Of a stretch of DNA of 64,000 bases, positions 10,871 through 60,178 are shown in pieces. Position 1 is the first letter of the stretch. Each line of letters starts with the position of its first letter. The stretch comes from Histomonas meleagridis (taxonomy: Eukaryota > Parabasalia > Tritrichomonadida > Dientamoebidae): contig WSYJ01000157.1 in assembly GCA_020186115.1 (NCBI GenBank), forward strand, positions 930,001 to 994,000, given 5' to 3'. The translations under genes and the position numbers were made by a program. The notes under the pieces were generated by a model. It was not told the DNA's origin. It saw only the letters and a list, made by a program, of their open reading frames with translations, and searched no databases.

Positions 10871-10895
10871 TTCAGTGTTATTTAACAGCATTGGA

Positions 10896-13205
10896 ATGAG
10901 TACATCAAAGATAAATTCCTTTCCAGACTTAACTGCACTTACAGAAATAATTTATAACATAAATACAAACAATCTTGATACATCTGTTTCTTCATTACGA
11001 GAATTTTATGATAATTCACGAACGTATTCATTAAACTTGATCATCTGCCGTTTCATTTACACTTTGTTTGTAACAAGACTGAAAAATATAGATATAATTA
11101 TTGAGTTTTTGAATTTAATTGAACGAGATGTAAATAAAAATCAAGTTTCAATAATTGACATCTTTTCTCAATTCCTTCGGAAAAATAACTCACAAGAATC
11201 TAATTATCTTATCGGAAAGTTGATAGAAAAAGGTTTAATTAACTCATCGATTACTAAAAATATGAAAAATTTATTTTTTTTACATTTTAAAGCACATTTC
11301 GTTTTAAACTATCGTTATCAATTTTCTGAATATTTCTCCAAAAACCTTGAAAAACTTAAAGCGAATAATTGGGAACTTCATCAGAAATACGTTAAAGAAG
11401 GAATAAATCAGAATGAAATTGCGAAAATAATTCGGAATGATGAAATAGAAAAACTTCAAGAAATATCATCAGAAACAAACTTCGATTTTAATCAAACAAT
11501 TGAGCCATCACTTTATGAAAGATATTCATTTATTAATCAATATGATGTTACATTAATTGATTATGCAGCATTTTTTTCTTCAGTTAAATGTTTTAAATAT
11601 TTACTTATGAATGGAGCAAAATTAGATAAAACAGGTAAATATGCAGTTGCAGGTGGAAATGAAGAAATAATTCATTTATGCGAACAAAATCATTCAACAT
11701 TTGAAGATGCATATGAAGCAGCAATAGAATTTCATCGAAATGATATATTTAAATATTTTTATGATAATAAGTTAAAAGAAATTAAGAATTTAGAAGAATT
11801 AGGAGCAAAATGTGTTTTACATGATAATTATGAACTTTTATCATTTTTACTTAAAGAAGGAATGAAAATAAATGAAAATATTCTCATTGCTTCAATCATA
11901 ACAGGGAATTTATATATTACTCAATATTTTCTCGAAAGTAATCATATTCCTATTGATTTTTTTGAAAATTTCGGGTTTTTCTGGAAATGTGGAACTTTAT
12001 AACTATTTAATTAACAATAGATACATTGATTTTAGCAAGATTGTTTGCTTATTTCATTAGATTTTTATTAAAATATTTTATTGTTTCATAAAAATTTTTA
12101 AATTTTTTTTTTAAATATTTTTAGCACTAACAAATGCTTCAAAAAATGGTTATACAGAAATAGTTAAATTACTTCTTGAACAAGAAGGAATTGATATTAA
12201 TGCTAAAGATATTTATTTGTTTTATTTAAAATTTATTTTAATAATTTAATATTTCAAAATAACATTTGGAAATTGTTTAAATTATTTTGGACAGCACTTA
12301 TGTATGCATCTAGAGATGGTTATACAGAAATCGTAAAATTACTTCTTGATCAAAAAGAATTGATATAAATGCTAAAGATATTTATTTGTTTTATTTAAAA
12401 TTTATTTTAATAATTTAATATTTCAAAATAATATTTGGAAATTATTCAAATTATTTAGAACAGCACTTATTTGGGCATCTTGGAATGGTTATACAGAAAT
12501 AGTTGAATTACTTCTTGAACAAGAAGGAATTGATATTAATGCTAAAGATATTTATTTGTTTTATTTAAAATTTATTTTAATAATTTTGGAATATTTCAAA
12601 ATAATATTTGGAAATTATATAAAATATTTGAAACAGCACTTATTAGAGCATCTTGGAATGGTCATATAGAAATAGTTAAATTACTTCTTGAACAAGAAGG
12701 AATTGATATTAATGCTAAAGATATTTATTTGTTTTAGTTGATATTTATTTTAATAATTTGGGATTTCAAAATAATATTTGGAAATTATTTAAATTATTTT
12801 GGACAGCACTTATGTATGCATCTAGAGATGGTTATACAGAAATCGTAAAATTACTTCTTGATCAAAAAGGAATTGATATAAATGCTAAAGATATTTATTT
12901 GTTTTATTTGAAATTTATTTTAATAATTTAATATTTCAAAATAATATTTGGAAATTATTTAAATTATTTAATACAGCACTTATGTTGGCATCTGAAAAAG
13001 GTCATACAGAAATAGTTGAATTACTTCTTGAACAAGAGAATATTGATATCAATGCTAAAGATATTTTTTTGTTTTATTTAAAATATTTTGAAATAATATG
13101 AAATTTCATATAAACATTTGGAATTACTTATAAACATATAAAACAGCGCTTATGATAGCATCAGAAAAGAAAAATGCAGAAATTATTCGATTATTTGCAG
13201 CCTAA
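10896..13205 (+). pseudogene. DUF3447-ankyrin gene with spaced modules, two frame breaks
   Basis: The N-terminal part (ATG at 10896) is closely related to the proteins at 36647, 56843 and 28287: helical N-terminus, then IIRNDEIEKLQEISSE, SLYERYSFINQYDVTLIDYA and EIIHLCEQNHSTFEDA, which is the DUF3447 core. A 1-nt shift near 11975 moves the frame into GFSGNVELYNYLINNRYIDF. Seven ankyrin modules of the form TALMYASRDGYTEIVKLLL follow, the last ending in a natural stop at 13203-13205. They are separated by AT-rich spacers at 12211-12287, 12380-12456, 12550-12629, 12723-12799, 12893-12969 and 13063-13139 (77, 77, 80, 77, 77, 77 nt). Module 2 (12288-12379) has lost one base; the next four are exactly 93 nt. 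The product would be an ankyrin protein of unknown partner. Confidence 0.75.
12121..13205 (+). repeat. About 170-bp tandem array: ankyrin module plus spacer
   Basis: Units recur every 169-173 bp: a 93-nt module encoding about 31 ankyrin residues, then a 77-80 nt spacer. Each spacer starts ATTTATTTG (one copy ATTTTTTTG) directly after the codon for the Asp of NAKD. It carries ATTTCAAAATAA and ATTTGGAAA in the middle and usually ends TTATTT before the codon preceding the Thr of TAL. Spacers contain stops in every frame that would join the modules. Confidence 0.9.
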
Positions 13206-23803: not shown

Positions 23804-24712
23804 TTTTTTTGTACAACTTTTTCAAATATTTACGCGGAACGATACAAAACATGCTTGACAAAAAATTGTAAATGTAAAACATCATCCTTATACCAAAGGT
23901 CTGTATTTAATTTCAAAATATTTTAATTTTTTAATAAAATTTTTTATTAAATCATATAATTAAATCAATTTAATAGTTTTTAAGTAATTCAACTATATCT
24001 GCGTGTTCATTATTAACTGCATATTCACATGCAGTCCAAAATAATTTAAATCATTTCCAAATATTATTTTAGAATTTTTAATCATTAAAATAAATATCCA
24101 ATAAAAAGATTAAATGTTTTTAATATTAACATCAATTCCTTTATACTCAAGAAGTAATTTAACAATTTCCATGTTACCATTTTTAGCTGCATATAAAAGT
24201 CCTGTATTAAATAATTCAATTAATTTCTATATGTAAAAAATGAATTTCAGCCCGAAACAGAGCAAATATATATCTTGAAAGTTAATGTCAAGTCCATCTT
24301 TTGAAAGAAGCTTTCAAATTATTTTTGTATAATCATTTCGAGCAGCATAAGTAAGTGTAGAATTAAATGATTTATATAAATTCTAAAAACCATTTTTGAA
24401 TATTAAGTAAAACAAATAAATGTTTTTGGCATTTATATCAATTCCTTTTTGTTCAAGAAGAAATTCGACCATTTCTATGACACCTTTTTTAGATACTAAA
24501 ATAATGAGTGCTGTATCAAATAATTTAAATAATTTCCAATTTTTTTTTAGAAATATCAAATTTCTTGAACAAATTTTAAACAAAACTCATAAATATTCTT
24601 ATCATTAATATCAAATCCTTCTTGTTCAGTAAGTAATCCAGCTATTTCTATTTGATTACATTCACATGCTATCATAAATGCTGTATTAAATAGTATAAAT
24701 AATTTCCAAATA

Positions 24713-25975: not shown

Positions 25976-28702
25976 TATTATTTTGACATATTTAAAAATC
26001 ATTAAAACAAATATTATATAAAACAAGCAAATATCTTTAGCATTAACATCAATTCCTTTTTGTTCAAGAAGTAATTTCATCATTTCAATATAAGGTATTT
26101 TACATGCATGCATAAGTGCTGTATCAAATGATTTAAATAATTCCCAATTATTCTTTCAAAATATGAAATTATTTAAACAAATTTTATCTTTGGAATTTAT
26201 ATCAATATCTTTTCTCTCAAGAAGTAAATTAATTATTTTATATTGTTTCTTTTCAACAGCCAAAATAAGTGCAGTTCTAAATATTTCATATAACTTCTAA
26301 ATGTTATTTTAAAATTTTAAGATATCAAAACAAATATAATCTTTAAAATTCACATCGGTTTTTATATTTTCAAGGAGTACTTTAACTACTTCTGTATTCC
26401 CTTTTTCAACAGCAAACATAAGAGCTGTATTAATTAATTTATACAATTCCCAAATAATATTTTATAATAAGAAATTATTAAAACAAATATCAAACCAAAA
26501 TAATATATACAATAAGCATTAACATCAATTTTTTCTTGTTCAAGAAGTATTTTAACTATTTGAATGCATCCTTCTTTAGCTGCTCTCATAAGTGCTGTTA
26601 AAAACAATTTAAAAAGTTTCCAAATTATTAAAATATATTTTAAATGAAATAAATAAATACAATTCTCATTGATATCAATTTCTTCATTTTCAAGAAGATA
26701 TTTCACTAAATTAGCATTACCTGATTGAGCTGCACATGAAAATATTGTTCTAAACACATAAAATAATTTCCAAATATTACTTTAAAATATAAATTTTATC
26801 AAAGAAATATCTTTTGTTTTGATATTGATATTTTTTCTTTCAAAAAATAACTTTACTACGTCTAATTGACCACTACAAACTGCAAAGAAAAGGGCATCAA
26901 TAAAAATTAAATTCAAATTTTGACTTTTTAATAAATATATCAAAACATTAAAATATATTTTCGTTTGAGCAATATGAATTCCTTTATGTTCAAGAATTAT
27001 TTTTACTAAGTCAATATATCCACGACCAGCTGCTTCATATAGTGCTGAATAAAACATTTTGAAGAAATTCCAAATATACAATACAATTATAAATAAAAAT
27101 TTTAAACCTATTTTATACTTAAATTTAATAAATCTGTTATCTCTAAGGTAATTAAAAACTTCTTCATTTCCCGAAAAAGTTAAAATCTCATGAACATGGA
27201 TTTTAATAGGCATTTTTTGAAGTAAATGTTTCACAATAAATAAATTACCCATTTGAACAGCTTTAAAAATCATTGATTTATCAATTTCCATTCCTTCATT
27301 TTCTAAAAATGAGAAAATTTCATAATTATAATTAGAAATACATTTTTTCCCTAATTTTATTAAACTATTAATGGTAATTAACTTATTTTCATAAAGATAA
27401 TTAAAAATATCATTTCGATGAAACATAATTAATGAGTTACATGAATCTTCAAAACTTAAATGATTTTGTTCACATAAATGAATTACTTCTAAGTTTCCAC
27501 CTGCAACTGCATATTTACCTGTGTTTTCTGTTTTACAATTGTTTAATAATAAATATCTAAAACATTTAATTGACCCAAAAAAGCTGCATAATCAATTAAT
27601 GCAACTTTTTTTTTGTTAATAAATGAACATCTTTCATAAAGTGATGGCTTAATTTTTTGATTAAAATCATAATTTTCGTGTGATGATATTTCTTGAAGTC
27701 TTTCGATTTCATCATTTCGAATTATTTTCGCAATTTCATTTGGATTAACTCCTTCTTTAATTAACTTCTTATGAAGTTCCCAATTATTTGCTGTGAGTTC
27801 TTCATAATTTTTTGATACATAATTCCCAAAGTTTTTTTTATCTAAATCATTTCCATCACTTAAGTATACAAAATATGGTAATTCTTTGAATCTGAGTTTA
27901 TCTGAACAAATCATTTCTTTTTCAAGCATTTTCTCAAGAAGAAAGTTTGCTTCTTGAGTTTTATTATAAATAATAAGAAAATCCACAAAAATATCAAGAA
28001 TTGATTTATTTTTTGAATTATTAATAATTTCTCTTTCTTTTGTTTGAACCATTCTTAAAAATTCAATACATAAATTATAATTATCCGTTGATACAAAATA
28101 TGAATACAAAAATTGGCAAACTGCTAAATTAGATGAATATGGATATTCTTTGGAAAAATAAGTTTTCATGAAAGAATCTACAGATTCATTAATATTTTCT
28201 TCATTTAAATCAAAAATGATTTGTTCAACAGATTGTAATATTTCTAAGTTTTCGTCACTATTCTCTTTTGTTTTTCTTCTGTTTCATTTTATCTAACTTT
28301 GTTTCGACAAAAAGAATTTTGAATTGGATAAACGTTTATTTGCATAGAAAAATTGAGGGGTAAACTTTAACCAATTAAAGACCAAAAATAAAATGCAAAT
28401 ATCTCATGTTCTGTGAATAAATAATATAAATTACTAAAATAAGAGATGTAAAACATATAGGGAATATAAAAATATGTGTTATTATCTATTATAAGGAAAT
28501 TAATAATTTTTCCATTAAAAGATTAATATGTATTATAATATAAAACATAATGAAAAAACGATGTTTTCTAGTGAGCATAGCATTATAAATTGCAACATAA
28601 AAAATAAAAAGAGAAGTACAATTCGTTCCTTCAAAAATATAAGTTTTTATTCAAACAAAAGTTTTATCAGAACTAACATTTAGTGAAACAGGATAGTCAT
28701 TT

Positions 28703-56842: not shown

Positions 56843-59800
56843 ATGGAATCAAATGTGAAATGTATTTTAAAACATAAAGAAATGCAATATCTAGAGTCGA
56901 TTTATCAAATTACATTCCAACTTGGACAAGAAAACATTAGTTTAATAGTTAAATCTATTATGAAATATTTTGATCAAGACAATTTATATTCATTTAACAC
57001 TGTTCTTTGTCAATGTGTATATTCATCTTTTTATTCGCAAAGGAAGTCTATTGATATATATTTTTTATATTTGCAATCAATTGAAGAAAGTGAAAAACAA
57101 ATTCTTCAACAAAATCCACAAATCTTTAATGTATTTTTACAATTTCTTTTACTTATAAATAAAAACGAATCAAATTATATTATTGCACAAATGATAGAAA
57201 ACAATTTCATTAAACCTGATTTAATTCAAGATCGGCTTAATATTAAGTCTTATTATGCAAATATGTATTTTGCGCATATAATACCAAAAGATTTTGAAGA
57301 AGAATTAAATTCTTATTTTTCTACATTAGGAGAAAAATATATTAATATTGAAGAGTTAAAAAAAGATAATTGGAAATTGCATCATCACTTTATAAAAGAA
57401 GGAAATCCTTCAGAAATGTCGAAAATAATTCGAAATGATGAAGTTGAAAAACTTCAAGAAATGTCATCACAATCCATTTTTGATTATGGTGGATTAATTC
57501 AATCATCTCCTTATGAGAAATATTCTTTTTTAAAATATAGTAATGTTACTTTAATTGATTATGCAGCATTTTTTGGATCAATTAATTGTTTTAAATTTTT
57601 ATTGTTAAATGGTTCTAAATTGACAAATACAATTAAATATGCAATCGCAGGTGGTAACATAGAAATAATTCATTTATGTGAACAATATCATTCGACATTT
57701 GAAGGCTCATTAGAAATAGCAATTGAGTTTCATAGAAATGAAATATTTCATTACCTTTATGATAATAATATTTCAAAAGAAGAGAAAACAAAAATTATAA
57801 CAAAATTAGGTATTAAATGTATAGAATCAGGAAATTATGAAATTTTTTCTTTTTTGGAACAAGAAGGTTTAAGTTTTAATGATGAAATTATACAAACTAC
57901 AATGAAAAGTGGGAACTTATATCTTGTTAAACATATTACCAAAGAAAAAGATTTCCCAAAGAATTCATTGCCTTTTTCTGTTTCATCTAAAAATATTGAA
58001 CTTGTTAGATATGTTATTCAACAAAAAGGAATTGATGTTAATTCCAAAGACATTTGTTTTTGTTTTTTGATGTTTGTATTAGTGTTTTAAAGTTTTAACA
58101 TGATTATCAATGTTTTTTTCTAAAATTTTATGCTTCATTAATTTATGCTTCTGAATTTGGTTTAAATGAAATAGCAAAATTACTTCTTGAATATAAAGAA
58201 ATTGATGTTAATGTAAGAGATGTTTTTTTGTTTTATTCACTGTTTAATTTAAATATTTTTCTATTTTTGAATATAATATTTAAAATTTAATCAAAACATT
58301 TAAAACGGCACTTATTTTTGCATCTGAAAAAGGTTATAAAGAAATAGTTAAATTACTTTTGGAGCAAAAACGAATTGATATTAATGCAAAAGATGTTTAT
58401 TTGTTTTAACCAGAATTAATTTTTAATAATTTCATGTTTAAAAATAGTATTTGGTGATTATTTAGATTATTTAAAACAGCATTCATGTATGCAAATGAAA
58501 AAGGTCATATTGAAGTAGTTGAATTACTTCTTAAACAAGATGGAATTGATGTTAATGCTCGAGAGTTTTATGTTTGTTTCGATGTTTCAATGTTTTTTAA
58601 AATAATTTGGAATTTATTAATATTATTTCAAACTGGTCTAATGTATGCATGTGAAAATGGTTATATTGGAATTATTAAGCTCCTTCTAGAGTATAAAGGT
58701 ATTGATATTAATGTAAAAAATTTTTAATTTTTTTATTTTGGGTTATTCATAATCCTTTGGAATTTCATAATAACATTTGGAATTTGTTCAATATGATTGA
58801 TACAGCACTTATGAAAATATCTAGAAAATCAAATACTGAAGTTGTTAAAATGCTCTTGGAAAAAAGTGATTTTAATATTAATGAAATAAATATTAATTCA
58901 ATTTGTTCAATATTAATTATAATTATTTGAAATTTCAAAAAATTATTTAGAGCTTTTTTAAATAATTTTTTTCAGCTCTTATGATTGCATCTGAATATAA
59001 TCAAATTGAAGTCGCAAAATTGCTTCTTGAGAAGGAGGGGATTGATATCAATATAAAAAATATTTTAACATTTTGTTTAATGCTTTTTTAAGAAATTTAA
59101 TATTAAAAAATTATATTTAGAATTAGTTTCACTTTATTGAAACAGCATTTATAATTGCATCTCATAAATGTCATATAGAAATTGTAAAATTGCTTCTGGA
59201 ACAAAAAGGAATAGATATAAATATTAAAAACAGTGTTTTCTTCAATTTCATTTAGGAATTTATTCATATTTTTTAAATCAGCACTAATACTAGCAACAAA
59301 AAATGGATACTTTGAAATTATCAAATTAATTCTTGAATATAAATCAAACGAAATCAATAAAAATGATATAAATTTAACTTATTATGTGTTTGCTAAAATA
59401 ATTTGAAACAGCACTTATAATTGCAACACAAAATAACTATACAGAAATAGTAAAATTGCTTCTTAAACAAGAAGGAATTAATATAAATCATAAAGATTTT
59501 TATTTTATTATAGTAATATCTAATTTTATAATATTATATTCCAAAAATATATTTGGAATTCATCAAAATAATAGATGACACCATTATTGATTGCATCACA
59601 AAGAGGATTTACTGATATTGTAAAATTACTCCTTGAAAAAGAAACTTTAGATATCAACGCAAAAAATATTTATTTATCTTAATTAATTTATAATTAAATT
59701 TATTCAAATTCCAAAAATTAATTTAATATTTGATTAAACAATTTCAGACAGCACTTCTAACAGCATCTACTCATGGAAATATCGAAATTGTAAAACTGCT

Positions 59801-60178
59801 TCTTGAAAGAAAAGGAATTGATATAAATGCTAAAGATGATTATTTAAATTAATTGTTGTTTATTCATATTATTTTTTGTATCAAAAAAATATTTGGAAAT
59901 GAATTAAATAATTTCGAACAGCACTTATTGAAGTATCATGGGCAGGGAGAACAGAAATTGTCAAATTATTACTCGAACAGGAAGAGATTGACATGAATGT
60001 CAAAACCAGAAATGGAATGACACCAATTCTTCTGGCAGCTGCTAGAAATAAAACAGAGATTGTTGAAATATTCAAGAATAAAAAAGGAGTCGAATATGAC
60101 GAACAACGCTTGAAAGAAGTCTCAATGAGTCCTGAATCCGTAATGAAAGGTTTTACTCCAACAAACCTTGATAACTAA
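56843..60178 (+). CDS. DUF3447-ankyrin protein with 12 spaced modules
   Basis: The best preserved of the family. The first block (56843-58051) encodes the helical N-terminus and the DUF3447 core (IIRNDEVEKLQEMSSQ, NVTLIDYAAFFGSINCFKFL, YAIAGGNIEIIHLCEQYHST) and the first ankyrin repeats. Eleven modules follow, each exactly 93 nt and free of stops, and a last block (59915-60178) that runs two repeats together without a gap (NVKTRNGMTPILLAAARNKT) and ends at a natural stop. Spacers: 58052-58128, 58222-58301, 58395-58472, 58566-58628, 58722-58798, 58892-58968, 59062-59138, 59232-59274, 59368-59404, 59498-59574, 59668-59744, 59838-59914 (77, 80, 78, 63, 77, 77, 77, 43, 37, 77, 77, 77 nt). Joining the modules gives a continuous protein of about 15 ankyrin repeats. 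Ankyrin repeats bind other proteins; the partner is unknown. Confidence 0.8.
58052..59914 (+). repeat. Ankyrin module/spacer array (12 spacers)
   Basis: Eight of the twelve spacers end in TTT directly before the codon preceding the Thr-Ala-Leu motif; the others end in ATT or AAT. Many start ATTTATTTG or GTTTATTTG. The sequences are much more diverged than in the 12.1-13.2 kb array, yet seven are still exactly 77 nt and align without gaps (for example 58892-58968 against 12211-12287). Confidence 0.9.

Follow-up and report, generated by a model that had tools for sequence, protein, structure and literature searches.

Histomonas meleagridis is a parabasalid parasite of poultry. In a window of 64,000 nucleotides (nt) of its contig WSYJ01000157.1 (positions 930,001 to 994,000; 28.4% GC; coordinates below are those of the window), we found at 56843–60178 an array in which open ankyrin modules of 93 nt alternate with AT-rich spacers. 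The modules are constrained as coding sequence, while the spacers are apparently untranslated and have no GT-AG borders; therefore, removal or bypass of the spacers is implied. We lean towards the reading that the spacers are introns with non-canonical borders, removed from RNA, and that each locus of this kind would be one multi-exon gene. Thus, of the original prediction, which proposed a new intron class or another form of removal for this array, the removal or bypass is upheld, whereas the new class stays a conditional reading of the sequences.

Organization of the array and of its gene family

The array (Table 1) begins with an open reading frame (ORF) that starts at 56843 and matches the DUF3447 and ankyrin domains. 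It is open up to ...GIDVNSKD, which ends at 58051, immediately 5′ of spacer 1, and extends 39 nt into this spacer before reaching a stop at 58090. Twelve modules follow, all exactly 93 nt in length (58129–58221 to 59915–60007), none with a stop and all in one constant phase relative to the spacers; 11 of them are flanked by spacers on both sides, in agreement with the run of 11 internal modules described originally. Most of the 12 spacers were also said to be out of frame and to carry stops, and we found lengths that are not multiples of three in 10/12, stops in the upstream frame in 9/12 and stops in the upstream or downstream frame in 11/12. Likewise, the two repeats of the last block are indeed joined by an ordinary junction of 9 nt (RNG) and end at a proper stop codon (60176–60178). 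The spacers of this array form a diverged set, with a mean identity of 0.56 among the seven 77-mers as compared with 0.63 for the modules. Each of them lies between the D or N at the end of one repeat and the codon that precedes Thr-Ala-Leu, and this fixed position, first noted here at the Asp-equivalent of NAKD, holds across the family.

A search of the 43.28-Mb assembly (121 contigs) with a related protein, P0005, gave at least 101 matches. Around 99 N-terminal loci were present among the matches listed (99 of 8255 candidates scored), the longest open frame among them reaching 581 amino acids (aa), and the family may well be larger. In the typical gene build, a DUF3447/ankyrin exon of roughly 400 codons at the N-terminal end precedes the 93-nt modules with their spacers, and a stop-bearing terminal module closes the gene; the N-terminal position is occupied by an ORF with 370 codons or more in 47 of the 51 paralogous loci that matched one relative best. 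The module/spacer architecture was present in the 60 loci, located on many contigs, that we scanned together with the window using a module hidden Markov model (HMM) (L002–L062 without L041; L041, and L001, which lies within the window, are excluded from the counts). Because near-identical module+spacer units occur inside single loci, we infer duplication of one such unit, which would explain the recurring position of the spacer with no need for repeated insertion.

Coding constraint and diversification of the modules

The coding constraint claimed for the modules is evident throughout the scanned loci. Stops were found in 12/430 modules with a score of at least 20, a choice by HMM that somewhat favours open modules, as against a mean of 219 expected when substitutions fall irrespective of frame (minimum of 194 in 200 simulations) and 131 when only half of them do; with a looser cut-off (score ≥ 8), 21/481 modules carry a stop. 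We also compared 13 pairs of recent paralogues, selected manually among the top 40 of 14,798 alignments and non-independent, with loci shared between pairs. In these, the N-terminal exon is under purifying selection (proportion of synonymous differences, pS, 0.153; proportion of nonsynonymous differences, pN, 0.078; pN/pS 0.51). For the modules, pS amounts to 0.139 and pN to 0.157, and there are three stop differences versus 34.2 expected at the silent rate, two of the three being located in the partner copy that the HMM had not chosen.

Variation is distributed unevenly within the module. Codons 1, 5, 6, 9, 10, 12 and 13, a set selected after seeing the variation, have a pN of 0.385, exceeding the pS of 0.251, and outside this set pN (0.078) lies below pS (0.115). 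Codons 1, 9 and 10, chosen as design/contact positions of DARPins and lying among the hypervariable codons, show a pN of 0.432 and a pS of 0.216. Such a conserved framework with hypervariable codons looks like a diversifying binding repertoire. At the end of the arrays, the last detected module is open through its first 20 codons in 49/50 cases. No spacer-like stretch follows it in 33/50 arrays, 17 of which stop within 31 codons; in the remaining 17/50 a spacer does follow, indicating either that a further module was missed or that the array is decaying. The rarity of stops, the constraint on the N-terminal exon and the open last modules would together be the marks of a translated product running from the N-terminal exon through the modules.

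Length, consensus and borders of the spacers

The original prediction regarded the spacers as freely varying and exempt from the constraint that acts on the modules, and this needs to be corrected. Among the 390 spacers counted between ungapped modules, 287 have exactly 77 nt, followed by lengths of 60 (35 cases), 80 (19), 57 (14) and 78 nt (10). The 77-mers share one AT-rich consensus from end to end, with GG at positions 58–59 (92% and 88%) and T at position 77 (T77, 98%); length, borders and the GG near the 3′ end are thus held. In a subset of 56 unique, strongly diverged 77-mers, T77 is present in 98%, T2 in 95% and a purine at position 1 in 95% (P = 8e-8, 8e-6 and 1e-6, respectively), in contrast to a mean of 0.66 for the top base of interior positions; therefore, the borders are kept while the interior decays. 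The first two bases of 373 unique spacers are AT in 65% and GT in 16%, and the last two are TT in 86%. All 16 spacer-like matches in the window (at the threshold used) fall within ankyrin arrays.

Between recent paralogues, the proportion of differing sites is 0.108 for spacers and 0.111 for the region upstream of the ORF; the former value is close to the module pS given above, that is, approximately the silent rate. In this comparison of modules with spacers between paralogues, which had been proposed originally, pN is below pS in the module framework and spacers are near the silent rate, and, as for introns in general, the flanking blocks are under protein-level selection and the insert is not. 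We relied on the paralogue pairs here since a comparison across units, in which spacers appeared closer than silent sites, was binned by spacer distance and hence biased. Similarly, since compensating gaps prevailed in the indel counts against the consensus unit, we discarded these counts in favour of gaps in the pairs, which number four per 5208 nt in modules (three at the final base adjoining a spacer and one frame-shifting inside a module) and seven per 4354 nt in spacers.

Stops in the spacers are about as common as the base columns predict, in both frames, and 8 of 30 unique 60-nt spacers are open, so these have not been purged of stops; on these grounds we rejected the idea that spacers are coding via a frameshift. 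Codons two and three of the spacers are stops in 5 to 6% of cases and the penultimate codon in 7%, compared with about 0.09% of module codons (31 per module); therefore, the exonic part of a spacer probably does not exceed one codon at either end, which would fix the border within around one codon. As for the shorter spacers, the RTTT start is shifted by three bases in 24/35 of those with 60 nt, as expected for a 57-nt spacer preceded by one additional A-rich codon. We also considered a 17-nt modular element behind the lengths of 77, 60 and 43 nt, and the extra codon with a 57-nt spacer fits those 24/35 cases. Among the 57- and 60-nt spacers, we observed several independent-looking deletions, with a net loss of 17 and 20 nt, partly explained by the extra codon or, perhaps, by near repeats; in our reading of the alignments, some of the 20-nt losses seem to sit between near repeats inside the spacer.

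Splice signals and small nuclear RNAs

The reported lack of a consistent GT-AG pair and of a Trichomonas-type signal was confirmed in the family. The best fixed frame-keeping GT..AG pair fits 8% of the 287 77-nt spacers, the 3′ motif ACTAACNCATAG occurs in 0/70 fetched family loci, and the looser pattern GTATGT..CTAAC..AG has no match in the window. In turn, the H. meleagridis genome contains intron-like GTATGT...ACTAACNCATAG stretches, with 9 matches versus 0 in the reversed control, a control that is partly circular because the strict pattern was written after seeing matches to a looser one (6/9 among them). These stretches are 58–71 nt long, where the pattern allowed 46–76 (e.g., C48:408794–408853), and in most an internal hairpin was noticed by eye. 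The strict pattern may aid annotation of ordinary introns in this genome. The looser GTATGT..ACTAAC..AG is not enriched in the genome (18 matches vs 162 in the control), and the T. vaginalis 3′ motif ACTAACACACAG gave 3 matches vs 2 in the control. Among the small nuclear RNAs, U2 is represented by two copies above the cut-off and U6 by a match of 43.7 bits, just below the cut-off of 44; they carry GTAGTA and ACAGAGA, the usual motifs of U2 and U6. For U1, no match to the Rfam model was obtained in the genome at E ≤ 10, which says little for a divergent protist.

Relatives and origin of the spacer

The 16 closest proteins (P0001–P0016), which come from ENA contigs of 1.3–6.1 kb, share 42–50% identity with the window protein. 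One of them, P0005, reaches at most 55% identity to loci of this genome among the matches listed and therefore comes from another source. When 12 of the 16 were inspected by eye, most were seen to end soon after the N-x-K-D position, several with a peptide resembling a translated spacer; P0005 tracks the spacer-like peptide over its full length, with the equivalent of TTTGG included, as far as the codons of the following module. In P0004, one junction is just three residues long and in frame. The Tritrichomonas proteins P0018 and P0060, as well as P0053 and P0054, have the N-terminal domain followed by directly joined ankyrin repeats, which suggests that the spacer was probably gained in the Histomonas lineage, entering one repeat before the split from P0005-type relatives; duplication of the module+spacer unit would then have spread it through the arrays. 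The commonest D-to-T spacing in the relatives is four residues (22/53 pattern matches), one Tritrichomonas match having a single residue.

Of 48 relatives in the protein collection, a single one (P0017, caskin-like) carries the name Histomonas and most entries are nameless; the family genes may thus be largely unannotated. In a limited library of literature on Histomonas and trichomonad introns, splicing and ankyrin, no title or abstract start describes such spacers. In the parts of the Histomonas proteome paper available to us, the sole ankyrin mention is a KANK1 entry, not tied to this family (PMC10063853).

Other interrupted arrays in the window

Two further genes of like build and one additional array are located in the window (Table 1). 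The gene at 10875–13205 shows a period of 170 nt and its last module closes with a stop at 13203–13205. Relative to its paralogue L002, it has a 1-nt deletion in the module at 12288–12380 and an earlier stop in the last module, and this copy may be decaying. In the third gene, the N-terminal exon (26782–28169, minus strand) lies in two frames, reflecting decay or an assembly error. An initiator-like promoter upstream of the family ORFs was considered and rejected, the signal being weak (8/46 vs 3/46 in a more distant stretch).

Table 1. Positions in the window of the array at 56843–60178 and of the other interrupted ankyrin arrays.
Feature	Position	Strand	Description
N-terminal exon (putative)	56843–58051	+	DUF3447/ankyrin domain; open up to ...GIDVNSKD
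Spacer 1	58052–58128	+	77 nt
Module 1	58129–58221	+	93 nt, open
Spacer 2	58222–58301	+	80 nt
Module 2	58302–58394	+	93 nt
Spacer 3	58395–58472	+	78 nt
Module 3	58473–58565	+	93 nt
Spacer 4	58566–58628	+	63 nt, open in both flanking frames
Module 4	58629–58721	+	93 nt
Spacer 5	58722–58798	+	77 nt
Module 5	58799–58891	+	93 nt
Spacer 6	58892–58968	+	77 nt
Module 6	58969–59061	+	93 nt
Spacer 7	59062–59138	+	77 nt
Module 7	59139–59231	+	93 nt
Spacer 8	59232–59274	+	43 nt
Module 8	59275–59367	+	93 nt
Spacer 9	59368–59404	+	37 nt
Module 9	59405–59497	+	93 nt
Spacer 10	59498–59574	+	77 nt
Module 10	59575–59667	+	93 nt
Spacer 11	59668–59744	+	77 nt
Module 11	59745–59837	+	93 nt
Spacer 12	59838–59914	+	77 nt
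Terminal exon (putative)	59915–60178	+	Module 12, 9-nt junction, last repeat, stop 60176–60178
Second gene	10875–13205	+	Like build: N-terminal ORF, modules from 12118, spacers of 76–80 nt
Third gene	26033–28169	−	Like build: spacers of 57, 60 and 77 nt
Additional interrupted module array	24039–24687	−	Spacers of 57, 63 and 77 nt

Proposed gene structure and alternative explanations

If the spacers are introns, a gene of this family would comprise an N-terminal exon, several ankyrin-repeat exons in a row and a terminal exon carrying the stop; the repeat exons would have arisen through tandem duplication of an exon+spacer unit of 170 nt. Each spacer would represent a phase 0 intron, which starts with (A/G)TTT, ends with T and most often has 77 nt, and the held (A/G)TTT, GG and final T are candidates for border recognition. 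The route of removal from RNA would be independent of the signals that mark the organism's ordinary introns, the spacers being devoid of GT-AG and of the ACTAAC element. Such a gene would yield a long ankyrin protein with surface residues that diversify between paralogues and may form a binding repertoire. A bolder version, which we offer tentatively and with less confidence, is that H. meleagridis has a second intron-removal system beside its ordinary spliceosomal introns, comprising hundreds to thousands of (A/G)TTT...T introns, mostly of 77 nt and lacking GT-AG, a branch motif, terminal repeats and paired ends, in one ankyrin family only, with repeat exons diversifying like a recognition repertoire.

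Several results weigh against reading the spacers as introns. We found no removal signal in them, whether GT-AG, a branch motif, an inverted or direct repeat or a supported helix: among the 25 column pairs with the strongest coupling, none is indicative of a helix with compensatory changes, end-to-end complementarity equals that of base-shuffled spacers (6.08 vs 6.08 ± 0.07; it is two standard deviations above the 5.98 ± 0.05 of shuffled pairing), and border direct repeats do not exceed chance (1.50 vs 1.51 ± 0.03). A candidate helix through G9-C45 was rejected, showing no covariation. Removal of whole spacers would leave one residue between D/N and Thr-Ala-Leu, compared with the four that are commonest in relatives. 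Searches for proteins matching the terminal block or the N-terminal domain, both limited by length, returned distant proteins only (39–44% and 25–44% identity, respectively), and there was no transcript or peptide crossing a spacer among the sequences searched. The last modules of the paralogue pairs (around 218 codons, some of them not from true last modules) have a pS of 0.145 and a pN of 0.157, thus, no purifying selection as a whole. For the modules in general, exchange between units may raise both rates and be partly behind pN exceeding pS. Also, in-frame spacers exist, few of the 60-nt ones are open, and the 51 loci examined for their N-terminal ORF are a non-random sample.

The main rival of the intron reading, which we consider rather unlikely, is that the modules are silent donor cassettes, gene-converted into genes elsewhere, and that the locus itself encodes just the N-terminal part with a short tail from spacer 1. 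Silent cassettes of antigen-variation systems and lamprey VLR donors are copied in this way, and Borrelia vls, Neisseria pilS and the VLR donors all comprise open variable cassettes in arrays, as do the units described here. Open modules, a conserved framework, hypervariable codons and near-identical units within loci would all fit a donor array, in which the end of the N-terminal ORF in the first spacer would be natural and the last modules, as observed, would show no purifying selection of their own. Yet, unlike those systems, the H. meleagridis arrays sit behind their own N-terminal exon at nearly every locus examined, and most end, in gene order, in their own last module with no spacer behind it. 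Moreover, no assembled recipient was detected among the approximately 99 N-terminal loci listed, where no open frame exceeds 581 aa, and donor cassettes would leave the conserved spacer borders without an evident role.

It is more doubtful that only the N-terminal protein of about 400 aa is made and that the arrays are relics. This would agree with the purifying selection on the N-terminal exon, with the stop of its frame within spacer 1 and with the protein searches, which gave no product containing later modules. However, stops in the modules are 11 to 18 times too rare for decaying sequence, also between recent paralogues bearing spacers, the framework codons are under purifying selection, and the last modules have stayed open.

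We give little credence to ordinary GT-AG introns with borders misplaced in our analysis, or to an assembly artefact. Some frame-keeping GT..AG can be found within the flanks taken in 109/287 of the 77-nt spacers, but no fixed pair accounts for more than the small fraction given above, and the organism's own intron-like stretches carry GTATGT together with a 3′ motif that the family loci lack; an artefact, in turn, is at odds with the like architecture in so many loci on different contigs. Least probable of all is DNA-level removal, such as the programmed excision of ciliate internal eliminated sequences (IESs), or ribosomal bypassing: short AT-rich elements with a weak end consensus inside coding sequence, as the spacers are, do resemble IESs in look, but the TA or other border direct repeat of ciliate IESs is missing, direct repeats being at chance, and the codon before the spacer, mostly GAT or AAT, differs from the usual last spacer triplet, TTT, therefore providing no matching take-off and landing codon. 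We know of no trichomonad with DNA excision or ribosomal bypassing.

Comparison with known introns

Trichomonas introns fall into types A and B, with GT/AG borders and a fused branch/acceptor motif, type A being 56–196 nt in length, and occur once per gene, rarely twice (T. stableri) (PMC12316389). They are similar to the spacers in being short, parabasalid and present also in ankyrin-repeat genes (PMC12316389); the spacers, however, possess neither motif and number up to about a dozen per gene. H. meleagridis itself was reported as intron-poor, with 573 and 638 introns and at most one per gene (PMC8529796). Its canonical intron-like stretches share the genome and a similar length with the spacers, yet have the GTATGT start, the ACTAACNCATAG end and, in most by eye, an internal hairpin, none of which was seen in the spacers.

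Introns without GT-AG are known from other protists. Amoebophrya has many of them, in repeated families, with U1 undetected (PMC7789003). A subset of its introners has inverted repeats that join the ends and direct repeats at the borders, neither of which is clearly shown by the spacers, and, unlike these introners, the spacers would have spread by unit duplication within one gene family. Euglenid nonconventional and diplonemid noncanonical introns have variable borders, and the mechanism of removal of the former is given as unknown (PMC4770533, PMC12621601). Euglenid introns form an RNA structure that brings their ends together, whereas in the spacers column coupling and end pairing revealed neither a supported helix nor paired ends.

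Significance

Should the spacers be spliced, an intron-poor species would harbour genes with many introns each that obey none of the organism's own splice rules, and one gene family would offer a ready model for the rise and recognition of non-canonical introns. Should they not be spliced, the arrays would amount to an extensive silent repertoire of ankyrin modules undergoing diversification. In both cases, this family, with around a hundred genes or more, is a candidate for a recognition system in a poultry parasite.

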